Origin: Pseudomonas aestuarii
Lineage (GTDB): Bacteria; Pseudomonadota; Gammaproteobacteria; Pseudomonadales; Pseudomonadaceae
Reading direction: 5' to 3'
DNA: 64,000 nt
Assembly (NCBI RefSeq): GCF_027988105.1
Contig: NZ_JAQJZJ010000001.1
Location: 434,001 to 498,000, forward strand
The translations under genes were made by a program, and so were the position numbers. The notes below the pieces were generated by a model that did not search any database, was not told the DNA's origin, and saw nothing but the letters and a program-made list of their open reading frames with translations. Positions 14,411 to 25,798 of this stretch are shown here, one piece after another (position 1 is the first letter of the stretch; each line of letters starts with the position of its first letter).

Positions 14411-15103
14411 CTACTCCCGTTCGGCCATTGCTGCCATGGCCACTGAGGTGGCTGCGGTACGGGTCTCCACGCCGAGTTTCACGTAGACGTGCTCCAGGTG
14501 CTTGTTCACCGTGCGCGGACTAAGGCTGAGAATGTCGCCGATATCGCGGTTGGTCTTACCGCAAGCCACCCAGCTCAATACCTCCACTTCGCGTTCGGTC
14601 AGGGCAAAGCGCGTCGACAGGGTCGCATAGGCCGGCTCGTTGTTCAGGCTGATATCCCGTGGTGCGGCAGCCGTACGGGCGGATTGGAGGATCTGCGCGG
14701 TACGCAGGTGCGAGGCGACCCGTGCCAGCACTTCGTCGGTGTGGATAGGTTTGGTCACGTAGTCGATGCCGCCAGCGGCAAAACCTTCCACCACATGTTC
14801 ACTGTCGGTCAGCGCGGTCATGAACAGTACCGGGATATCGGCTGTCTGCGCCTCGGCTTTGATCCGCCGGCAGGTTTCGAAGCCATCCAGGCCCGGCATC
14901 ATCGCATCGAGCAGGATCAGGTCCGGGCGTCGGCGCTGAATGCGGTTGATGGCGCTGAGACCGTCGAGTGCCACCAGCACCATGTAGCCGGCATCGTCGA
15001 GGGCGTCGGAGAGCAGGGCCAGGTTGTCCGGGGTGTCGTCGACGATGAGAATCACGCCGTGGTCGGCGGCCGCTCGTTCAGCGGGTGATGTCAGCACGGT
15101 CAT
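14411..15103 (-). CDS. LuxR/FixJ-type response regulator partnered with the permease-kinase
   Basis: This 230-residue regulator has a receiver domain (residues about 17-130, acidic pocket DD at 22-23, phospho-acceptor Asp66 in LILLDAMMPG, Lys in TKPIH) and a C-terminal LuxR helix-turn-helix (about 165-217: LTEREVEVLSWVACGKTNRD, SLSPRTVNKHL). The ATG at 15103 lies inside the end of the upstream kinase gene (26-bp overlap), which indicates co-expression and a cognate pair. It probably activates the divergent urt operon and fmdA. The inverted repeat TACGTC-N4-GACGTA in front of both is a candidate target. A longer open frame upstream of 15103 overlaps kinase coding sequence and is rejected. Confidence 0.92.
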   Translation of the reverse strand: MTVLTSPAERAAADHGVILIVDDTPDNLALLSDALDDAGYMVLVALDGLSAINRIQRRRPDLILLDAMMPGLDGFETCRRIKAEAQTADIPVLFMTALTDSEHVVEGFAAGGIDYVTKPIHTDEVLARVASHLRTAQILQSARTAAAPRDISLNNEPAYATLSTRFALTEREVEVLSWVACGKTNRDIGDILSLSPRTVNKHLEHVYVKLGVETRTAATSVAMAAMAERE

Positions 15104-18100
15104 GGTCGGTCTCCTTGAGTTGGCGAGTGAGTTCGTCCAGCCGGAAACCTTTCGCCAGTGCCCGCAGTGGTGCGGTGAAACGGGCATAGTCGGACGACTG
15201 CTGGTCGATGGCATCCAGCTTGTCCTGCAGGCCGCGCACATAACCGAGTGCCGCCAGTTCGCGCAACGCCTCCAGGTCGCTGGACTTGGGCAGGCGCTGG
15301 GGGCCGGTGAGTGGTTCGGGAATGTCGTGGCGAGTGCGGTGCAACCAGGTCAGCTTGAGCTGTTTCTGGATGCGTTCGAGCAAGTGCGGGGTATGCACGG
15401 GCTTCGCCAGGTAATCGTTGCAGGTGGCGGCCACGCTGCGATCGCGGTCGTCGGCGAAGGCATTCGCCGAAATCACGATGATCGGCGCCTGCGACAGGGC
15501 ATTGCGGCGGATCAAGCGGCTGGTTTCCCAGCCATCCATCTGCGGCATCGACAGGTCCATCAGAATCAGGTCCGGGTGCAGAAGTGCCACTTGGCGGATG
15601 GCTTCCTGGCCGCTGGCGGCTTGGGCGATATTGAAACCCAACGGTTCGAGCATGCCGGTCAGCACGCGCCGGTGTTCGATATGGTCATCAACCACCAGGA
15701 TCAGCCGGCGCGGACCGTGGTAGCCGATAATGTCGTGTGCCACATGCACCACCGCCTGCGGCACGCGTACCTCGGAGAGGAACAGGCGCACCTGGAAGTT
15801 GGTGCCTTGGTCGGGCACGCTGCGCACCGATAGTTCGCCGCCCATCAGCGAGGTGAGCATGCGGGTGATGGTCAGGCCGAGGCCGACGCCGTTGTCTTGG
15901 CGCATCAGGTCGCCGCGTTCGAAGGGTTGGAAGATCCGCTCGATTTGCTCGGGGTCGATGCCGATGCCGGTATCGGCGATCTCGAAGTTGGCGGTCTCAC
16001 GCAGGTAGCTGACATGCAGGCACACTTCGCCACTGTCGGTGAAGCGGACGGCATTGCCGAGCAGGTTAATCAGGATCTGCCGCACGCGCTTTTCGTCACC
16101 GCGCACCACCGCCGGCACGCGGCCCAGTACCTCCAGGCGAAAGCGCAGGCCTTTCTCCTCGGCCTGGGGAGCGAACATGCGCTGCAGGTCCTGGATAAAT
16201 TCCGGGAAGGCAATTTCGCTGGGCTCCAGTCGCAGCTTGCCAGCCTCGATCTTGGCCACGTCGAGCAGGCCGTCGATCAGCGACAGCAGGTGCGAGCCGT
16301 TGCGCAGTATGGTCGCCAGGGCATCCTGATGGCGCTCGGGCAGGGCGTCGTCACGTTGCAGGATCTGGGTATAGCCCATGATGCTGTTGAGCGGGGTGCG
16401 CAACTCGTGGGACAAGCCGGTGACATAGCGGCTCTTCGCCGCATTGGCCGCCTCGCTGGCCTCCTTGGCCTTTTGCAGCTCCTCGTCGGTGCGCCGGTGC
16501 GCCTCGATTTCCTGCATCAACAGCACGGTCTGTCGATCCGACTCTTGCTGCGCCACGCTGCGGCTTTCTCGGGTCAGTACCACCCACCAGGCGAGGATTG
16601 CGGCGAACAGCGAGAGGGTCAGAAAGGCTTTGAGAAAGGCTGGATAGAGGCTCTTCTGCAATTCCGGAAAATGCGGCAGCAGACCATGAGACACCTGCCC
16701 ATAAATCATCGTCAGGGAGCCAAACAGCAGCAATACCAACAGCGCCAGTAAACCCAGGTACTGAGCCAGACGGCTATGCAGGTGTGGGATGCAGCGCTTG
16801 GGCAGCAGCCAGCGGGCGAAGTTATCCAGTTGTTCGCTGAGACGTGCCTGGGGCTTGCAGGCGTCGCCGCAGCGCGCGTCCAGCGAGCAGCACAGTGAGC
16901 AGATCGGCGTACTGTAGGCTGGGCAGAAGGCCATGTCGGCGCGCTCGAAGGCATTACTGCACAAACCGCATTCCAGGGTTTGCTGGGTGCTGACGGGAAA
17001 CAGCAGCTGTAGCTGCGGCTCGCTGGTGCGCGCAATGTAGTAGCGACCCTTGGTCAGCCAGGCAATTAGCGGCGCGACGATAAAGGCCGAGATCAGCGCC
17101 ACCATCGGCGAGGCGGCCTGGGCCAGTTCACCAAACCACCCGCAGTAGGCGAGGATCGACAACAGTGAGGCGCAGAGCATGGCGCCGACCCCGACCGGGT
17201 TGATGTCGTACAGGTGGGCGCGTTTGAACTCGATATGCTTGGGCGACAGGCCCAGCGGCTTATTGATCACCAGGTCGGCGACCAGCGCGCCGATCCAGGC
17301 GATGGCGATATTGGCGTACAGGCCGAGTACCTGCTGGATTGCATCGAATACGCCCAACTCCATCAGCATCAGGGCGATAGCCACGTTGAATACCAGCCAT
17401 ACCACGCGCCCTGGGTGGCTGTGGGTGACGCGGGCGAAGAAGTTCGACCAGGCCAGCGAGCCTGCGTAGGCGTTGGTCATGTTGATCTTGATCTGCGAAA
17501 TGATCACGAACAGGACCATGGCCCCCAGCGCCCACTGCGGCGAGCTGAATACGTAGCTGAAGGCCACCAGGTACATCTGCGTGGGTTCGGCCGCGCGTTC
17601 GAGGGGGATTTCATGCTGCAGGGCGAGGAAGGCCAGGAAGGCCCCGGCAAGCATCTTCAGGGCGCCGGGAATGATCCAGCCAGGTCCCGCCATCAGCAGC
17701 GCGGCCCACCAGCGCTTGCGATTGGCGGCGGTTTTTTCCGGGAGGAAACGCAGGTAGTCGACCTGTTCGCCAATTTGCGTCACCAATGCCAGCGCGACGG
17801 TACAGGCGGCGCCAAACAGCAGGAGGTTGAACGTGCCACCTTCTCCTTCGCGACCGCCGAAGGAGGTCAGGTCGACCAGCGCCTCGGGGTTCTTCCACAC
17901 CACGAATACATAGGGCAGCACCAGCAGCAATAACCACAGTGGCTGAGTCCACATTTGCAGGCGGTTGATCAGGGTGATGCCGTACGCCACCAGCGGAATC
18001 ACCATGACCGAACAAATCACGTAAGCCAGCGCCAGCGGGATCTTGAAATAGAGCTCCAGCGCCAGAGCCATGATCGCCGCTTCGAGGGCGAAGAACAGGA

Positions 18101-18563
18101 AGGTAAAACTCGCGTAGATCAGTGAGGTGATCGTCGAGCCGATATAGCCGAAGCCCGCGCCGCGGGTCAGCAGGTCCATGTCCACACCATAACGCGCCGC
18201 GTAGTAGCTGATCGGCAGGCCGGTGAGAAAGATCACCAGGGCCACTGCGAGCACTGCCCACAGGGTGTTGGTGAAGCCGTAGCTGATCGCCAGAGCCCCG
18301 CCGATGGCTTCCAGAGCCAGGAACGACACCGCACTCAGGGCCGTGTTGGCGATGCGCAGTTCCGACCATTTGCGAAAGGATTTCGGCGTGAAGCGCAGGG
18401 CATAGTCTTCCATGGTCTCGTCGGCGACCCAGCTGTTGTAGTCGCGGCGGATCTTGACGATGCGCTGAGTACCGGTGGCTTGCACGAAAGCGGTTCCTTG
18501 GTCTGTACGCCTGGCCTGTAGGGCGTCATGCGAAATAGCAAGAAACATGCCCCTGCCCGGCAA
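15078..18563 (-). CDS. NCS1-type permease fused to a hybrid histidine kinase
   Basis: The 1161-residue protein begins with a permease domain (about 35-520) resembling purine-cytosine permeases of the NCS1 family, with about twelve membrane helices. A cysteine-rich stretch follows (about 530-575: CGLC, CSLCC, CGDAC), then two more membrane helices (about 605-655) and a short coiled coil. The kinase has its H-box at His719 (SHELRTPLNS) and an ATPase domain (NLLGNAVRF, DTGIGI, GVGLGLTI). A receiver with Asp1003 (LILMDLSMP) and a 100-residue helical tail complete it. The layout is analogous to CbrA, which carries a different transporter fold. It probably senses a urea- or amide-like ligand at the membrane. 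The ATG at 18563 is the longest start; an ATG at 18548 is possible. Confidence 0.92.
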   Translation of the reverse strand: MPGRGMFLAISHDALQARRTDQGTAFVQATGTQRIVKIRRDYNSWVADETMEDYALRFTPKSFRKWSELRIANTALSAVSFLALEAIGGALAISYGFTNTLWAVLAVALVIFLTGLPISYYAARYGVDMDLLTRGAGFGYIGSTITSLIYASFTFLFFALEAAIMALALELYFKIPLALAYVICSVMVIPLVAYGITLINRLQMWTQPLWLLLLVLPYVFVVWKNPEALVDLTSFGGREGEGGTFNLLLFGAACTVALALVTQIGEQVDYLRFLPEKTAANRKRWWAALLMAGPGWIIPGALKMLAGAFLAFLALQHEIPLERAAEPTQMYLVAFSYVFSSPQWALGAMVLFVIISQIKINMTNAYAGSLAWSNFFARVTHSHPGRVVWLVFNVAIALMLMELGVFDAIQQVLGLYANIAIAWIGALVADLVINKPLGLSPKHIEFKRAHLYDINPVGVGAMLCASLLSILAYCGWFGELAQAASPMVALISAFIVAPLIAWLTKGRYYIARTSEPQLQLLFPVSTQQTLECGLCSNAFERADMAFCPAYSTPICSLCCSLDARCGDACKPQARLSEQLDNFARWLLPKRCIPHLHSRLAQYLGLLALLVLLLFGSLTMIYGQVSHGLLPHFPELQKSLYPAFLKAFLTLSLFAAILAWWVVLTRESRSVAQQESDRQTVLLMQEIEAHRRTDEELQKAKEASEAANAAKSRYVTGLSHELRTPLNSIMGYTQILQRDDALPERHQDALATILRNGSHLLSLIDGLLDVAKIEAGKLRLEPSEIAFPEFIQDLQRMFAPQAEEKGLRFRLEVLGRVPAVVRGDEKRVRQILINLLGNAVRFTDSGEVCLHVSYLRETANFEIADTGIGIDPEQIERIFQPFERGDLMRQDNGVGLGLTITRMLTSLMGGELSVRSVPDQGTNFQVRLFLSEVRVPQAVVHVAHDIIGYHGPRRLILVVDDHIEHRRVLTGMLEPLGFNIAQAASGQEAIRQVALLHPDLILMDLSMPQMDGWETSRLIRRNALSQAPIIVISANAFADDRDRSVAATCNDYLAKPVHTPHLLERIQKQLKLTWLHRTRHDIPEPLTGPQRLPKSSDLEALRELAALGYVRGLQDKLDAIDQQSSDYARFTAPLRALAKGFRLDELTRQLKETDHDRADITR

Positions 18564-18641: not shown

Positions 18642-18669
18642 TACGTCAGATGACGTACGCCGTTACGTC
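18642..18669. promoter_or_regulatory. Candidate operator of the amide regulator upstream of urtA
   Basis: TACGTC-AGAT-GACGTA (18642-18657) is a perfect 6-bp inverted repeat with a 4-bp spacer. A third half-site TACGTC follows at 18664-18669. The same TACGTC-N4-GACGTA arrangement occurs upstream of fmdA at 24026-24041. The position, about 120 bp before the urtA start codon, suits an activator site for a NarL/FixJ-type regulator. Confidence 0.6.
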
Positions 18670-18775: not shown

Positions 18776-20020
18776 ATGGATTCTCGACTAACCGGTGCGA
18801 AACACTTACTTCCCCGGCGCCTGACGCTGAGTGCCGCCGCACTCTCGCTGATGGCTGCCAGCGTGTTCAGTCAATTCGCCGTTGCAGACGCTGCCAACAC
18901 CACTGGTCTGGCAGTGACCGACACCACCGTGACAGTCGGTCAGCTGCACTCCGCGACTGGCACCATGGCTATTTCCGAGACGGGCTCGATTCAGGCTGAA
19001 CGTCTGGCCATCGACCAGATCAACGCTTCCGGCGGCATCCTCGGGCGGCAGATCGAGGTGATTCAGGAAGACGGTGCCTCGGACTGGCCGACCTTCGCCG
19101 AGAAAGCCAAGAAGCTGCTTGAGAGCGACAAGGTGGCTGCCGTATTCGGTTGCTGGACCTCGGCTTCGCGCAAAGCGGTGCTGCCAATCTTCGAGAAAGA
19201 CAACGGCCTGCTCTACTACCCGACCTTCTACGAAGGCTTGGAACAGTCGAAGAACGTGATTTACACCGGTCAGGAAGCCACTCAGCAGATCCTCGCCAGC
19301 CTCGACTGGATCGCCAAAGAGAAGGGCGCCAAGACCTTCTACCTGCTGGGTTCTGACTACATCTGGCCGCGCACCTCGATGAAGATCGCCCGTAAGCACA
19401 TTGAAAACGTACTCGGCGGCAAGGTTGTCGGCGAAGAGTACTACCCGCTGGGCAACACCCAGTTCGGCTCGCTGACCAACAAGATCAAGCTGAAGAAACC
19501 GGACGTGGTCTTTGCCGCAGTAGTCGGTGGCTCAAACGTGGCGTTCTACAAGCAGCTCAAAGCCGCGGGCATCACCTCGGACAAGCAGACCCTGCTGACC
19601 ATCTCCGTGACTGAGGATGAAATGCTCGGTATCGGCGGCGAAAACATGAAGGGCTTCTACTCCTCCATGAAGTACTTCCAGACCCTGGATAACCCTAACA
19701 ACAATAAGTTTGTTGCGGAGTTCAAGGCCAAGTACGGCAAGGACTCGGTCATCGGCGACGTGACTCAAGCAGGCTACCTCGGTCCATGGCTGTGGAAAGC
19801 GGCGGTGGAAAAAGCCGGCAGCTTTGACGTCAACAAAGTAGTGGCAGCCTCTCCCGGCATTGAACTGACCACCGCGCCGGAAGGCTACGTGAAAGTTCAC
19901 GAGAACCATCACCTCTGGAGCAAGGCGCGGATTGCCGAGATCCAGGCCGACGGTACTTTCACCGTGGTTCACGAGTCCGAACTGATCGAGCCGAATCCGT
20001 TTCCAAAGGGCTACCAGTAA
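18776..20020 (+). CDS. urtA: Urea/short-amide ABC transporter substrate-binding protein UrtA
   Basis: This 414-residue periplasmic binding protein of the branched-chain amino acid/amide type has an N-terminal signal sequence (LTLSAAALSLMAASVFSQFAV, cleavage near ADA at residue 36-40). The mature part (VGQLHSATGTMAISETG, FGCWTSASRKAVLP, YYPTFYEGLEQSKNVIYTG) matches UrtA and the related FmdD. I chose the ATG at 18776 because AGAGGAG lies just upstream; the open frame extends to 18575 but without homology. Because formamidase lies downstream, the ligand may be formamide or other short amides as well as urea. Confidence 0.93.
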   Translation: MDSRLTGAKHLLPRRLTLSAAALSLMAASVFSQFAVADAANTTGLAVTDTTVTVGQLHSATGTMAISETGSIQAERLAIDQINASGGILGRQIEVIQEDGASDWPTFAEKAKKLLESDKVAAVFGCWTSASRKAVLPIFEKDNGLLYYPTFYEGLEQSKNVIYTGQEATQQILASLDWIAKEKGAKTFYLLGSDYIWPRTSMKIARKHIENVLGGKVVGEEYYPLGNTQFGSLTNKIKLKKPDVVFAAVVGGSNVAFYKQLKAAGITSDKQTLLTISVTEDEMLGIGGENMKGFYSSMKYFQTLDNPNNNKFVAEFKAKYGKDSVIGDVTQAGYLGPWLWKAAVEKAGSFDVNKVVAASPGIELTTAPEGYVKVHENHHLWSKARIAEIQADGTFTVVHESELIEPNPFPKGYQ

Positions 20021-20049: not shown

Positions 20050-20156
20050 GGCATGTGGGGCGATGACGGCAGGTGCCATCGCTCCCGGGCCCGTCGGGGC
20101 TAACCAGGCGGGCTCTGATCGGCCTCTTTATTTTCCACCACCGGGAGACCTCCCAG

Positions 20157-21077
20157 ATGGACGTATCTCTTTCCGAATTCGGCGCGATTGCCATCATGCA
20201 AGGCTTTAACGGCCTGTCGGTGTTCTGCGTGCTGCTGCTGATGGCGCTGGGCCTGGCGATCATTTTCGGCCAGATGGGCGTGATCAATATGGCCCACGGC
20301 GAGTTTCTCACCGTCGGCGCCTACACCACCTACGTCATCTCCTCGTTGACCCTGCAGTACTTCCCGGCCATGCAGCCGTACTATTTCTTCTTCGCCATTA
20401 TTGCCGCGTTCGTTATCGCCGGCGCCCTTGGCTGGCTGGTGGAATCGCTGATGATCAGCAAGCTTTACCACCGGCCGTTGGATACCTTACTGGCCACCTG
20501 GGGCTTGTCGCTGGTCATGCAGCAGGCGTTTCGCTCGATCTTTGGCGCTCGTGAAGTGGGCGCGGAAATGCCCGCCTGGATCATGGGCTCGTGGGCCCCG
20601 TCCGAGGCCATCGACATTCCCAGGAACGGCCTGTTCGTGATGGGCCTGACCTTGCTCTGCACGGTCACCATCTTTCTCATGCTCTATCGCTCGCGCTGGG
20701 GCCTGCAGGTGCGCGCCACCATGCAGAACCGGGTGATGAGCCGCGCGGTAGGGATCAATACCAAGAAGGTTGACCGCATGACCTTCGCCCTTGGCTGTGG
20801 CGTGGCCGGGGTGGCTGGCGCGGCCTTCACCACGATCGGCTCGACCGGGCCGACGGCCGGCTCGCTGTACATCGTCGACACTTTTCTCACCGTGGTATTC
20901 GGCGGCGCGGCGAGCCTGGTGGGCACCATCGCTTCGGCGTTCAGCATCGCCCAGGCGCAATCGCTCATGGAGTTCTTCCTCTCCGGCTCGATGGCCAAGG
21001 TACTGACCCTGTCGGCGGTGATCCTGATCCTGATGGTGCGTCCACAGGGGTTGTTCTCGAGCAAGGTGCGCAAGTGA
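20157..21077 (+). CDS. urtB: Urea/amide ABC transporter permease UrtB
   Basis: This 306-residue LivH-type inner-membrane permease has about eight helices and the family signatures GLAIIFGQMGVINMAHGE near the N-terminus and VDTFLTVVFGGAASLVGT late in the protein. The ATG at 20157 follows a GGGAGA ribosome site at 20143-20148; the open frame extends upstream without homology. It is the second gene of urtABCDE and pairs with UrtC to form the membrane channel. Confidence 0.94.
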   Translation: MDVSLSEFGAIAIMQGFNGLSVFCVLLLMALGLAIIFGQMGVINMAHGEFLTVGAYTTYVISSLTLQYFPAMQPYYFFFAIIAAFVIAGALGWLVESLMISKLYHRPLDTLLATWGLSLVMQQAFRSIFGAREVGAEMPAWIMGSWAPSEAIDIPRNGLFVMGLTLLCTVTIFLMLYRSRWGLQVRATMQNRVMSRAVGINTKKVDRMTFALGCGVAGVAGAAFTTIGSTGPTAGSLYIVDTFLTVVFGGAASLVGTIASAFSIAQAQSLMEFFLSGSMAKVLTLSAVILILMVRPQGLFSSKVRK

Positions 21078-21180: not shown

Positions 21181-22368
21181 ATGAAAAATGCATACGAAAG
21201 CCTACTGGGTGGCAAGCAGGGGGCCATTGGTCTGCTGGTGCTGGCCGTCCTGATCCTGGTGGTATTCCCGTTGGCGCTGGACTCCTTCCGCCTGAGCATG
21301 GTGGGTAAATACCTGACCTACGCCTTCGTCGCTGTCGGCCTGGTCCTGTGCTGGGGCTATGGCGGCATTCTCAGCCTGGGCCAGGGTATTTTCTTCGGCC
21401 TCGGTGGCTACTGCATGGCGATGTTTCTCAAACTTGAGGCATCGGACCCAGAGAGCACCAAAATCCAGTCGACCCCGGGTATTCCGGATTTCATGGACTG
21501 GAACCAGATCACCGAACTGCCGATGATGTGGCAGCCGTTCCACAGTTTCAGCTTCACCCTGCTGGCGGTGCTCGCAGTGCCGACGCTGTTGGCCCTGGTG
21601 ATTGGCATCGCGATGTTCAAGCGCCGCGTCGGTGACGTGTACTTCTCTATCGTGACGCAGGCCATCGCCGCGATCCTGACCATCCTCATCATCGGCCAGC
21701 AGGGTCTGACTGGCGGGGTCAATGGCATCACCGACCTGCGCACCCTGAACGGTTGGGATATCCGCGATGACAGCAGCAAACTGATCCTCTACTTCGTCAA
21801 CGCCGCACTGTTGATCGGCTGCGTATTACTTGGCCGCTTCGTTCTGACTTCCAAACTCGGGCGCCTGCTGATGGCCATGCGCGACAAGGAAGAGCGGGTG
21901 CGGTTTTCCGGCTATGACGTGGCCAGCTTCAAGATCTTCGTGTTTTGCCTGGCGGCGGCCTTCTCGGCCATTGGCGGGGCGATGTTTGCCTTGCAGGTCG
22001 GCTTCATGTCGCCGAGTTTCGTCGGCATCGTGCCGTCGATCGAGATGGTGATTTTCGCCGCCGTGGGCGGGCGCATGTCGTTGCTCGGCGCGGTTTACGG
22101 CACGCTGCTGGTGAGTTTCGGCAAGACCTACTTCTCCGAGAGCTTCCCAGAACTGTGGCTGTACCTGATGGGTGGCCTGTTCATTGTGGTGGTCATGTAC
22201 TTCCCCAATGGTCTGGCTGGCCTGTGGGAAAGCCATGGGCGCAAATGGCTGTCGCGTTTTGCCCTGGGCAACAAGGTGTTTGGTCAGTCGGTAGTCAAGG
22301 CCCGGGTCATGAGCCCAGTGAAAGTTGCTACGCCGCAACCCTCCCGTGAACTGGAGACCACGCCATGA
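21181..22368 (+). CDS. urtC: Urea/amide ABC transporter permease UrtC
   Basis: This 395-residue LivM-type permease has about ten membrane helices. Family features include YAFVAVGLVLCWGYGGILSL, GQGIFFGLGGYCMAMFLKLE, TGGVNGITDL and the cytoplasmic loop MAMRDKEERVRFSGYD. AGGAG lies ten bases before the ATG. The stop overlaps the urtD start (ATGA), so the two are translationally coupled. Confidence 0.95.
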   Translation: MKNAYESLLGGKQGAIGLLVLAVLILVVFPLALDSFRLSMVGKYLTYAFVAVGLVLCWGYGGILSLGQGIFFGLGGYCMAMFLKLEASDPESTKIQSTPGIPDFMDWNQITELPMMWQPFHSFSFTLLAVLAVPTLLALVIGIAMFKRRVGDVYFSIVTQAIAAILTILIIGQQGLTGGVNGITDLRTLNGWDIRDDSSKLILYFVNAALLIGCVLLGRFVLTSKLGRLLMAMRDKEERVRFSGYDVASFKIFVFCLAAAFSAIGGAMFALQVGFMSPSFVGIVPSIEMVIFAAVGGRMSLLGAVYGTLLVSFGKTYFSESFPELWLYLMGGLFIVVVMYFPNGLAGLWESHGRKWLSRFALGNKVFGQSVVKARVMSPVKVATPQPSRELETTP

Positions 22369-23126
22369 ATAGTCCCGCTGGATTTCAGGCCGCCAAGCCG
22401 GTGTTGTCGATCGAGGGGCTGAGCGTGTCCTTCGATGGCTTCAAAGCGGTTGATAACCTCAACCTGTATGTCGACCGTAACGAAGTACACGTGGTCATCG
22501 GGCCTAATGGTGCAGGCAAGACCACGCTGCTCGATCTGATTTGCGGCAAGACCAAGGCCACCGCCGGCAGCATCGATTTCGACGGCCGTGAACTGAGCAA
22601 GATGCGCGAGTACGACATCGTTCGTGCCGGAGTCGGGCGCAAGTTTCAGAATCCATCGATTTACGAAAATCTGACGGTGTTCGAGAACCTGGAAATGTCC
22701 TATCCCAAGGGCCGCAAGGTGTTTGGTGCGCTGTTCTTCAAGCGTAGCGCCGAGGTGATTGCGCGGGTCGAGGAAGTGGCTGCGGAAATCTTCCTCAGCG
22801 AGTTGTTGGATATGCAGGCCGACCTGCTGTCGCACGGCCAGAAACAGTGGCTGGAGATCGGCATGCTGCTGATGCAGGACCCGGCGCTGCTGATGCTCGA
22901 CGAGCCGGTGGCCGGCATGAGCGTCAGTGAGCGGGTGCAGACCGCCGAGCTGCTCAATCGCATCAGTCAAGGCCGTTCGGTACTGGTGATCGAGCATGAC
23001 ATGGAATTTGTCAAAAGCATCGCCCACCGGGTCACTGTGCTGCACCAGGGCACGGTGCTGGCTGAGGGCAGCATGGAGGCGGTGCAGAGTAATCCGAAGG
23101 TGATCGAGGTGTACCTGGGGCATTGA
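22365..23126 (+). CDS. urtD: Urea/amide ABC transporter ATP-binding protein UrtD
   Basis: This 253-residue LivG-type ATPase has a Walker A motif GPNGAGKTT near residue 46, a signature SHGQKQWLEIGM, a Walker B LLMLDEPVAGM and a switch His in VIEHDMEF. It couples ATP hydrolysis to transport together with UrtE. It overlaps urtC by 4 bp and is followed by urtE after 81 bp. Confidence 0.95.
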   Translation: MNSPAGFQAAKPVLSIEGLSVSFDGFKAVDNLNLYVDRNEVHVVIGPNGAGKTTLLDLICGKTKATAGSIDFDGRELSKMREYDIVRAGVGRKFQNPSIYENLTVFENLEMSYPKGRKVFGALFFKRSAEVIARVEEVAAEIFLSELLDMQADLLSHGQKQWLEIGMLLMQDPALLMLDEPVAGMSVSERVQTAELLNRISQGRSVLVIEHDMEFVKSIAHRVTVLHQGTVLAEGSMEAVQSNPKVIEVYLGH

Positions 23127-23207
23127 TCGCCGGCACTCAGCTTTGTCGGTGGGCACGCTTGGTGTTGTCCACCTGACCCAAACAACTTGGCGGCAAGGAG
23201 TTCAAGC

Positions 23208-23897
23208 ATGTTCCAGATCACCAATCTCGTGTCCGGCTATGGCCAGAGCCAGATCCTTCACGAACTCAACCTCGACGTGGCGAAGAAGGAAATCGTCGCG
23301 GTCATGGGCCGTAACGGCATGGGCAAGACCACCCTGTTCAAGAGTCTGATGGGCGTATTGCCGCAATGGGGCGGGCAGATCAGCGTAGACGGCCAGGACG
23401 TGTCGGCGATGGAAACCCATGAGCGGGTCGAACGCGGCATCGCCTATGTGCCGCAGGGGCGGATGATCTTCTCGCACATGACGGTGCTGGAGAACATTCA
23501 GACCGGTCTGCCGGCCTCGGCCAGGGGCAAGGTGCCGGATGACCTCTACGCGCTGTTCCCGGTGCTGCAGGAGATGCGTAACCGCAAGGGCGGCAACCTC
23601 TCCGGCGGTCAGCAACAGCAACTGGCCATCGCCCGTGCACTGGCGACCAACCCCAAGGTGCTGCTGCTGGATGAGCCGACCGAGGGCATCCAGCCGTCGA
23701 TCATCAAGGACCTCGCCCACAAGCTGAAGGAGATCCGCAATCTGCGTGATCTGACCATCGTCGTTTCTGAACAGGTGCTGTCGTTCACCATGGAAATCGC
23801 CGATCGCTTCCTGGTGATCGAGAAGGGCAAGTTCGTGGTCGAGGAGAGCCGCGACAAGGTCGACGAGACGATGATCAGCCGCTACCTGTCGGTCTGA
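23208..23897 (+). CDS. urtE: Urea/amide ABC transporter ATP-binding protein UrtE
   Basis: This 229-residue LivF-type ATPase is the fifth subunit of the transporter. It shows Walker A GRNGMGKTT, the signature LSGGQQQQLAIARAL, Walker B VLLLDEPTEGIQPS and a final VVSEQVLSF switch region. The ATG at 23208 follows AAGGAG at 23194-23199; an in-frame ATG slightly upstream at 23187 lacks a comparable site. It is the last urt gene; a terminator-like hairpin follows. Confidence 0.95.
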   Translation: MFQITNLVSGYGQSQILHELNLDVAKKEIVAVMGRNGMGKTTLFKSLMGVLPQWGGQISVDGQDVSAMETHERVERGIAYVPQGRMIFSHMTVLENIQTGLPASARGKVPDDLYALFPVLQEMRNRKGGNLSGGQQQQLAIARALATNPKVLLLDEPTEGIQPSIIKDLAHKLKEIRNLRDLTIVVSEQVLSFTMEIADRFLVIEKGKFVVEESRDKVDETMISRYLSV

Positions 23898-24025: not shown

Positions 24026-24041
24026 TACGTCATTCGACGTA
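24026..24041. promoter_or_regulatory. Candidate operator of the amide regulator upstream of fmdA
   Basis: TACGTC-ATTC-GACGTA repeats exactly the arms and spacer length of the site before urtA. It lies 88 bp before the fmdA start and downstream of the urt terminator, so fmdA probably has its own promoter responding to the same regulator. Confidence 0.6.
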
Positions 24042-24129: not shown

Positions 24130-25359
24130 ATGACCGATACCCTGATCAAGGTCGACCTCAATCAGCCTGCCACTGAAAACGAGCAAATCCACAACCGCTG
24201 GCATCCGGATATTCCGATGGCCTGCTGGGTCAAGCCGGGCGAGGATTTCATTCTCGAAACCTATGACTGGACCGCCGGCGCGATCAAGAACAACGACGAT
24301 GCCTCAGACGTGCGCGACGTTGACCTGTCCACCGTGCATTACCTCTCTGGCCCGGTCGGTGTGCATGGCGCCGAGCCCGGTGACCTGCTGGTGGTCGACC
24401 TGCTCGACATCGGCGCAATGGCCGACTCGCAGTGGGGCTTCAACGGCTTCTTCTCCCGGCAGAACGGCGGCGGCTTCCTTACCGATCACTTCCCCATGGC
24501 GCAGAAGGCCATCTGGGACTTCAAGGGGATGTTCACCAGTTCGCGACATATCCCCGGCGTCAACTTCGCCGGTTTGATCCACCCCGGTCTGATCGGCTGC
24601 CTGCCGGATCACAAGATGCTGGCCGACTGGAACAAGCGCGAGCAGGAACTGATCGATACCGACCCGCACCGCGTACCGGCCCTGGCCAACCCGCCGATGG
24701 CGCCGACCGCGCACATGGGCAAGATGAAAGGCGAGGCCCGCGACCTGGCCGCGCTGACCGGGGCGCGCACCGTGCCGCCGCGCGAGCATGGCGGCAACTG
24801 CGACATCAAGGACCTGTCGCGTGGCTCGAAGATCTTCTTCCCGGTTTATGTCGACGGCGCCGGCTTGTCGGTGGGCGACCTGCACTTCAGCCAGGGCGAC
24901 GGTGAAATCACCTTCTGCGGCGCTATCGAAATGGCCGGCTGGGTACACATGAAGGTCGAGCTGATCAAGGGCGGCATGGCCAAGTACGGGATCAAGAATC
25001 CGGTGTTCAAGCCCAGCCCGATCACTCCGAACTACAAGAACTACCTGATCTTCGAAGGCATCTCGGTGGACGAGGCGGGCAAGCAGCACTACCTCGACGT
25101 CAACATCGCCTACAAGCAGGCCTGCCTCAATGCCATCAACTACCTGACCAAGTTCGGCTACTCGCCGGCCCAGGGCTATGCGCTGCTCGGCTCTGCGCCG
25201 GTGCAGGGACATATCAGCGGTATCGTCGACGTGCCCAACGCCTGCGCCACGCTGTGGTTGCCAACCGAAATCTTCGACTTCGACATCAACCCCAATGCAT
25301 CCGGCCCGATCAAGTACCTCGACGGCAGCATCGACCTGCCTATCGCGCCGGACAAGTGA
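24130..25359 (+). CDS. fmdA: Formamidase FmdA (acetamidase/formamidase family)
   Basis: This 409-residue cytoplasmic enzyme hydrolyses formamide to formate and ammonia; the family also acts on acetamide. Family motifs visible include HYLSGPVGVHGAEPGDLL, GHIS-type residues, the acidic GDGEITFCGAIEM and PPREHGGNCDIKDL. The length equals that of the Methylophilus/Pseudomonas formamidases. CCAGGAG lies eight bases upstream of the ATG. Being next to urtABCDE and fmdB points to an import-and-hydrolysis route that provides nitrogen. A GGCGCCATGGCGCC palindrome at 24084-24097 in the leader may form a hairpin. Confidence 0.95.
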   Translation: MTDTLIKVDLNQPATENEQIHNRWHPDIPMACWVKPGEDFILETYDWTAGAIKNNDDASDVRDVDLSTVHYLSGPVGVHGAEPGDLLVVDLLDIGAMADSQWGFNGFFSRQNGGGFLTDHFPMAQKAIWDFKGMFTSSRHIPGVNFAGLIHPGLIGCLPDHKMLADWNKREQELIDTDPHRVPALANPPMAPTAHMGKMKGEARDLAALTGARTVPPREHGGNCDIKDLSRGSKIFFPVYVDGAGLSVGDLHFSQGDGEITFCGAIEMAGWVHMKVELIKGGMAKYGIKNPVFKPSPITPNYKNYLIFEGISVDEAGKQHYLDVNIAYKQACLNAINYLTKFGYSPAQGYALLGSAPVQGHISGIVDVPNACATLWLPTEIFDFDINPNASGPIKYLDGSIDLPIAPDK

Positions 25360-25450: not shown

Positions 25451-25798
25451 ATGCCGACCTATGAATATGACTGTGCGGGCTGCGGTGACTTCACCCAGTT
25501 ACGGCCAATGGCTGACCGCGACCAACCCTGCGCTTGCCCGTACTGCGGTAGCCAGAGCCAGCGGGTGATCCTCTCCGCGCCGGGGTTGGCGACTATGTCG
25601 GGCAGCCAGCGCCGTGCCATCACCGCCAACGAGCGTAGCGCTCACGCACCGCAGACCCTCGATGAATACAAACACTCGCGCAAGCACCCCAAGGGCTGCG
25701 GTTGCTGCACGCCAAACAAACCGCTGGCACCCACCCAGACCAACCCGCATGCGCTGAAGGGCAAGCCGGCCGGACGGCCGTGGATGATCAGTCATTAA
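25451..25798 (+). CDS. fmdB: FmdB family zinc-ribbon protein
   Basis: The 115-residue protein starts MPTYEYDCAGCG and has the FmdB zinc ribbon with Cys8-x2-Cys11 and Cys29-x2-Cys32 (CPYC), then a basic tail ending with another cysteine group (CGCCTP). The family is named for its link to formamidase and was proposed as regulatory; its role is not proven. CAGGAG precedes the ATG, 91 bp after fmdA, so the two are probably co-transcribed. Confidence 0.9.
   Translation: MPTYEYDCAGCGDFTQLRPMADRDQPCACPYCGSQSQRVILSAPGLATMSGSQRRAITANERSAHAPQTLDEYKHSRKHPKGCGCCTPNKPLAPTQTNPHALKGKPAGRPWMISH

Follow-up and report, generated by a model that had tools for sequence, protein, structure and literature searches.

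A Permease-Kinase Fusion Beside urtABCDE

A window of 64,000 nucleotides from Pseudomonas aestuarii (RefSeq assembly GCF_027988105.1, contig NZ_JAQJZJ010000001.1, positions 434,001 to 498,000 of the forward strand) contains on its minus strand a gene for a hybrid sensor histidine kinase whose N-terminal part resembles the NCS1 (purine/cytosine) permeases. The gene overlaps that of a LuxR-type response regulator and is divergent from urtABCDE, which is followed by the formamidase gene fmdA. We consider it likely that the protein is a short-amide receptor of permease origin, with formamide first and urea second among its ligands, which drives urtABCDE and fmdAB through the LuxR-type regulator. 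The features of the locus, with their window coordinates, are as follows.

14411..15103, minus strand: response regulator, receiver plus LuxR-type DNA-binding domain (Pfam; probable ATG 15103)
15078..18485, minus strand: hybrid sensor kinase with NCS1-like permease domain (probable GTG start 18485; Pfam, genus conservation)
17049..18413, minus strand: NCS1-like permease domain, residues 1-455 (hhalign, AlphaFold model)
16857..16970, minus strand: eight-cysteine strip, C482 to C519 (alignment conservation; predicted beta-hairpins plus helix)
16530..16772, minus strand: two extra long helices, residues 548-578 and 583-628 (model; the second continues towards the kinase)
16239..16439, minus strand: HisKA (Pfam E 1.9e-19)
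15777..16100, minus strand: HATPase_c (Pfam E 1.2e-26)
15366..15701, minus strand: receiver domain, Response_reg (Pfam E 5.2e-26)
18642..18657, no strand assigned: palindrome TACGTCAGATGACGTA, candidate operator between kinase gene and urtA (pattern search)
18776..20020, plus strand: urtA (TIGR03407, 529 bits against a cut-off of 493; probable ATG 18776 by eye)
20073..21077, plus strand: urtB (TIGR03409)
21181..22368, plus strand: urtC (TIGR03408)
22365..23126, plus strand: urtD (TIGR03411)
23187..23897, plus strand: urtE (TIGR03410)
24026..24041, no strand assigned: palindrome TACGTCATTCGACGTA, candidate operator 104 bp before fmdA (pattern search)
24130..25359, plus strand: fmdA, formamidase (PF03069 E 2.4e-182; NF045496)
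25451..25798, plus strand: small open reading frame (ORF) after fmdA, conserved beside fmdA in relatives, which we take to be fmdB

An earlier sequence-only reading had described a single frame, 15078-18563, joining a permease, a cysteine strip, membrane helices, a kinase and a receiver. That architecture is real: HisKA, HATPase_c and Response_reg all lie in the C-terminal half of the minus-strand frame, as in hybrid histidine kinases, hhalign and the structural model account for the remainder, and an uninterrupted full-length fusion is present in 30 of 149 genomes of the genus (own included), with open frames of 1131-1241 amino acids. Only the start has to be moved. The N-terminus shared among genus relatives begins at about codon GTG 18485, which is therefore a likelier start than TTG 18563 and probably yields a protein of 1135 amino acids; residue numbers used here run from MEDYALRF (18413). 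Separate translation of permease and kinase was considered and nothing favours it, the frame being open throughout in 30/30 full-length genus copies. Pfam detects neither an Hpt nor a PAS domain in the sensor, and the Pfam scan gave no match to STAC, although whether the library contains a STAC model is unchecked. For the regulator, conservation makes ATG 15103 the most likely start, with an overlap of 26 nt between the two genes, an overlap noted previously, and the equally noted divergence from urtABCDE recurs, together with the regulator gene, in 29/29 genus relatives.

Affinities of the Permease Part

The permease part escapes Pfam. The N-terminal 629 residues are blank at E 10, PF02133 gives no match to the window permease part up to the same E, and among relatives 1/23 reaches that model (E 7.6e-8). 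In profile comparison, 59 relatives aligned by hhalign with four ordinary NCS1 proteins from the P. aestuarii genome gave a probability of 94.7 and an E of 6.2e-8 over residues 35-463 (381 columns). Kinship with SLC5 transporters and CbrA was rejected, the corresponding comparison with three SSS proteins of this genome giving a probability of 0.4 and an E of 0.15. An AlphaFold2 model built from 59 sequences (pLDDT 90.0, pTM 0.88) is closest in fold comparison to CodB (Z 34.2, 396 residues, 3.3 A) and Mhp1 (Z 26.6-29.9, 420-426 residues), the next row standing at 25.2; the same two proteins fill ranks 1-5 in Foldseek, and SSS structures share the wider fold with the model at lower Z. The earlier assignment to an NCS1 rather than a CbrA/SLC5 type of transporter is upheld by both hhalign and fold comparison, and the domain is a divergent NCS1 relative lying under the Pfam threshold. 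Behind the cysteine strip the model places helices at 548-578 and 583-628; a stand-alone relative at locus L058 terminates right behind the strip.

Stand-alone and Fused Members of the Family

Matches occur in 19 of 369 genomes of a class sample, own included; those in the 18 others comprise 16 long ones, one partial at a contig end and one of only 26% identity (G268), for which tblastn of the stretch concerned (L076) gave nothing. A scan of GTDB with a stand-alone query returned at least 578 confirmed relatives, and the best 80 of these form the named set, in which stand-alone proteins are over-represented. Among these best 80 are proteins from actinobacteria, cyanobacteria, Bacillota, Sulfurimonas, myxobacteria and proteobacteria. 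Members were called stand-alone by the length and end of their frame, and the remainder of the 80 were classed as kinase fusions, a class in which two (L154 and L179) are cut by a contig end and three (L113, L125 and L141) went without an output-domain scan. The outputs found are hybrid kinases, other kinases, a PAS-kinase-receiver-Hpt arrangement and GGDEF-EAL with or without PAS, the GGDEF-EAL assignment resting on Pfam in L135, L138 and L171, on inspection by eye in L070 and on assumption from length in L139. In databases the fused protein goes by names such as 'ATP-binding protein' or 'ArcB'. The family also travels on plasmids, with 532 of 72,556 plasmid records matching the permease part, 342 of them from Klebsiella.

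A FastTree phylogeny of 101 proteins (unrooted, with local support only) separates 28 stand-alone from 73 fused members by a single branch with support 99. A further branch (98) has 55 hybrid kinases to one side, and outputs are intermixed among the other fused rows. The simplest reading of this unrooted tree is a single fusion event followed by exchange of outputs. At one Streptomyces locus (L134, 11659-13173) a PF02133 permease gene directly follows the stand-alone eight-cysteine permease gene.

A Palindrome Ahead of urtA and fmdA

The palindrome TACGTn6ACGTA occurs at two places in the window (18642 and 24026) and in none of 100 shuffles. Across 130 loci (2.40 Mb) there are 79 such sites, in counts uncorrected for kinship among relatives that are not independent: 46 lie between the sensor gene and urtA, 28 precede fmdA by 68-131 bp and 3 are ahead of the sensor gene, 77 of the 79 in all. 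Of the two left unassigned, one (L096) is 82 bp ahead of an fmdA that the stretch truncates. A relaxed form of the pattern occurs in 46/60 divergent sensor-urtA intervals. At L058 the site separates a kinase gene from a stand-alone permease gene, behind which come fmdA and amiE; elsewhere urtABCDE holds that place, and in L058 the permease seems to replace the ATP-binding cassette (ABC) importer. A copy of the locus on a Klebsiella plasmid carries TACGTCATTTAACGTA in the sensor-urtA interval, and Bradyrhizobium copies have an altered palindrome, TACGCAn4TGCGTA or near. A third palindrome in the P. aestuarii genome, at C1:60290-60305 (L219 4991-5006), is located just ahead of a 451-amino-acid ORF; this one may be due to chance, since a backward control pattern also has two genomic places.

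Gene Neighbours and the Probable Ligand

Neighbouring genes were scored by tblastn (1e-20) in the stretches fetched, several of which are short, and the AmiF counts include cross-matches to AmiE. Among genus relatives fmdA falls within the fetched stretch in 24/29; the other five comprise two contig ends, one cut fmdA and two with none. More widely, genes for FmdA, AmiE, AmiF or UreC were found near 13/26 stand-alone loci as against 1/13 control loci with ordinary PF02133 permeases, and near 28/50 other fusions, or 39/50 if Urt genes are counted. Proteins that adjoin stand-alone members include an aliphatic amidase and a formamidase (NCBIfam) as well as UreD (Pfam); eight neighbours in one scan, and others elsewhere, are unconnected with amides. 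Amidase and urease neighbours were not found by tblastn at the Streptomyces and Actinacidiphila stand-alone loci L119-L123, L134 and L115, whose permeases may have a different substrate. The one positive control locus (L212, G203:C37) has an ordinary PF02133 permease clustered with UrtA-C, AmiE-, AmiF- and UreC-like genes, and amides may be handled by plain NCS1 proteins as well.

These neighbours point to amides and urea, and the choice between them leans towards formamide or another short amide. That urea is the ligand, with fmdA a passenger in a urea regulon, we regard as rather unlikely. UrtA does pass the urea-binding-protein model TIGR03407, one hybrid-kinase clade adjoins urease, and some stand-alone relatives are found beside urease; urease-linked branches may indeed sense urea. 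In P. aestuarii, however, the single urease alpha match of the genome (C1:256536) has Urt genes of its own beside it, there is a second UrtA (C1:264303, 45% identical), and tblastn finds no urease gene in the window. In the lineage of the window it is fmdA and not urease that shares the palindrome. Further evidence comes from a conjugative IncFIB/IncFII plasmid of Klebsiella pneumoniae (L227, NZ_LR890416.1 58791-86347), which joins the same sensor (50% identity) and urtABCDE (55-75%) to a formamidase of the AmiF family and has no FmdA. FmdA and AmiF matched separate models, and we take them to be different families with formamide as common substrate. Formamide is placed before urea because the second Urt system adjoins urease and because the plasmid locus replaces FmdA with an unrelated formamidase.

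Predicted Pocket Residues and the TM1 Aspartate

Eight residues of the permease part (E111, E216, Q217, D219, R222, K309, N311 and N314) show no variation among either stand-alone or fused members; E111, K309, N311 and N314 belong to the predicted pocket. By alignment E111 corresponds to Q121 of Mhp1, K309 to S312, I310 to T313 and N311 to N314, Mhp1 positions that we take to bind hydantoin or sodium. The hydroxyls of the presumed sodium site, S312 and T313, are absent here, with K309 in 59/59 sequences and I310 in 58/59 (V in 1/59); they are also missing in 2/4 ordinary NCS1 proteins from P. aestuarii.

Stand-alone and fused members differ at a handful of fixed positions, above all in transmembrane helix 1 (TM1). 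D34 is present in 28/28 stand-alone proteins and in 0/73 fused ones, which have L (70), M (2) or I (1). Position 35 is E in 73/73 fused proteins and F, Y, Q or L, never E, in the 28 stand-alone ones; G112 to A and S317 to A distinguish the fused proteins without exception, and Y31F is among the fixed differences as well. L34 is found in the 29 genus relatives and in the Klebsiella plasmid copy, and D34 in a stand-alone protein from Arthrobacter.

On this comparison the fused receptor has probably kept its pocket and binds its ligand while no longer coupling transport. A true transceptor, in which the permease part would still import an amide or urea and the kinase would respond to transport or to occupancy, in line with the proposal made for CbrA, is unlikely. 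Its best grounds are the identity of E111, K309, N311 and N314 in fused and stand-alone proteins and the precedent of CbrA taken up below. Against it stand the absence of D34 from all 73 fused proteins and the fixed G112A, S317A and E35, the ABC importer that accompanies the fused genes in the lineage studied, and KsAmt5, whose transporter domain binds without efficient translocation according to the accessible text (PMC8534201). The sequence-only reading had left it undecided whether the protein senses urea or a short amide while transporting it or while only binding it; the results lean towards a short amide, formamide before urea, and towards binding only, because all fused proteins lack the TM1 aspartate present in all stand-alone ones.

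The Eight-Cysteine Strip

The strip follows the pattern C-x2-C-x11-C-x7-C-x2-CC-x5-C-x3-C, with cysteines at positions 482, 485, 497, 505, 508, 509, 515 and 519. All eight are kept in 30/30 genus sequences and in 18-19 of the 19 of the class sample, in an alignment from which L075 (partial) and a second, cut copy of L062 were left out and in which the remaining cysteines of the domain are less conserved. Among the 81 named permease parts, which include 26 stand-alone permeases, every one of the eight is conserved in 80-81.

The structural model gives short strands, predicted to form beta-hairpins, plus a helix. Foldseek returned no match for the strip at E <= 0.001 (best E 0.25, a RING domain), and a fold comparison gave a best Z of 3.7 to a ribosomal protein, followed by the FYVE domain 2yw8 (Z 3.3, 1.9 A over 41 residues). 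Profile searches of PDB and Pfam with the strip gave nothing significant. RING, FYVE and similar treble-clef fingers are the nearest, non-significant resemblances, and no named zinc-finger family was found for the strip by fold or profile comparison. The strip is probably a structural, zinc-binding finger that the permease ancestor already possessed.

The sequence-only reading had proposed that the cysteines bind metal or report redox state. That they are a kinase-specific feature was rejected, as they are equally conserved in kinase-free stand-alone permeases; the whole permease family has them, stand-alone members included, and they are therefore no dedicated reporter for the kinase. That the strip itself senses redox state or a metal, with the permease fold a mere membrane scaffold, is very improbable: its conservation and its location, with the permease on one side and the kinase-side helices on the other, would suit such a part, but the same conservation without a kinase, the resemblance of its CxxC knuckles, predicted beta-hairpin and helix to a structural finger (non-significant in fold matches) and neighbours that indicate amides or urea, not redox or metal stress, all tell against it.

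A Proposed Model for Amide Sensing

In the mechanism that we propose, a short amide would bind in the pocket of the NCS1 fold, a pocket common to the stand-alone amide/urea permeases of the family. In the fused lineage the change of D34 to L, M or I, with the other fixed changes, would allow binding without coupled transport. The resulting change of shape would pass through the cysteine finger and the two added helices to the kinase, where HisKA would be phosphorylated, and phosphate would then reach the LuxR-type regulator either via the receiver domain or directly. The regulator would bind TACGTn6ACGTA ahead of urtABCDE and fmdAB, and the genes for uptake (urtABCDE) and hydrolysis (fmdAB) would be switched on.

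Several observations weigh against this amide-receptor model. According to the accessible text of PMC7096432, CbrA transports histidine and does not need its kinase domain to do so. The placement of E216 relative to Mhp1 is unsure, the TM6 alignment being gapped. The strip is absent from the stand-alone relative on an Arthrobacter plasmid and incomplete in L074 and L183, and is therefore not essential to the permease. The exact palindrome is lacking at most urease-linked kinase loci, and the whole P. aestuarii genome has three places with TACGTn6ACGTA against two for the control; because the control reaches two, genome-wide counts alone prove nothing, and the weight rests on position. Among stand-alone loci 13/26, all Streptomyces ones included, had no amidase or urease gene by tblastn, and neither amide nor urea genes were found at any of 4 GGDEF-EAL loci, nor any such gene at 11/50 other fusions. 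The sequence-only reading was to be refuted if homologues occurred mostly without urt or amidase genes; this is not the case in the hybrid-kinase lineage, but would be so for the GGDEF-EAL proteins and for most cyanobacterial and Sulfurimonas kinase fusions, in whose fetched stretches no urt, amidase or urease gene was found.

A wider generalization is offered tentatively, as one that may well hold and may equally well need revision. A branch of eight-cysteine, NCS1-like amide/urea permeases would have turned once into a plug-in membrane receptor, losing its coupling aspartate, gaining two helices and becoming joined to hybrid and plain kinases and to cyclic di-GMP enzymes across several phyla. 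One lineage would govern its own regulon via TACGTn6ACGTA, in a locus that is also present on Klebsiella plasmids.

Elsewhere in the window, a 136-amino-acid ORF at 13870-14280 matches only residues 647-782 of the 783 in a model of membrane-bound PQQ glucose dehydrogenase, and is either a remnant or a gene broken upstream.

Relation to Known Systems

Transporter-kinase fusions are known as a kind, and the locus itself has been drawn: in Ectopseudomonas guguanensis G3 a hybrid histidine kinase and a LuxR regulator lie beside urtABCDE operon III, and fmdA has an adjoining locus tag, so that the likeness extends to urtABCDE plus a formamidase (accessible part of PMC13296017). There the protein is described simply as a hybrid histidine kinase, and the word NCS1 is absent from that text (PMC13296017). 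In the open-licence literature searched, no description of an NCS1-kinase fusion was found, nor a prior description of an eight-cysteine NCS1-like receptor, of its output exchange, of the fixed change at D34 or of the palindrome, although an NCS1-kinase fusion may have been published elsewhere. Only a small number of transporter-kinase fusions have been investigated, and they raise the general question of whether binding or transport is what is read out. With stand-alone and fused permeases separated by a handful of fixed differences (D34L, E35, G112A, S317A and Y31F), the step from pump to receptor becomes testable residue by residue. The family is widespread yet hidden, its permease part invisible to Pfam and its records bearing the names given above, and a nitrogen-scavenging system now has candidates for its ligand class and its operator, along with a small regulon.

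The closest counterparts in design are CbrA and the other SLC5-STAC kinases, for which a link from nutrient binding to transcription has been proposed in the accessible parts of the sources (PMC13022988, PMC7096432, PMC9100948, PMC5715377). As far as these texts go, CbrA, CrbS and RpuS share with the window sensor a transporter fold of the LeuT type and a kinase on one polypeptide. CbrA moreover has a PAS domain (accessible text of PMC13022988), and the window sensor has none by Pfam. Here the transporter part is NCS1-like, not SLC5-like, the eight-cysteine strip and two extra helices occupy the place where STAC would be expected, and the regulon suggests amides or urea. CodB and Mhp1 are the closest solved folds and share with the window sensor the TM8 asparagine and the TM6 motif D-x-x-R-F/Y; the sensor differs from them in lying below Pfam detection, in having K309 and I/V310 at Mhp1 positions 312-313, and in its added finger, helices and kinase. 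KsAmt5, an ammonium transporter-histidine kinase fusion, differs in its ligand, ammonium, and presumably in a transporter fold (Amt) unrelated to that of the window sensor. The likeness lies in a transporter turned receptor, which in KsAmt5 binds and hardly translocates, as the accessible text reports (PMC8534201).

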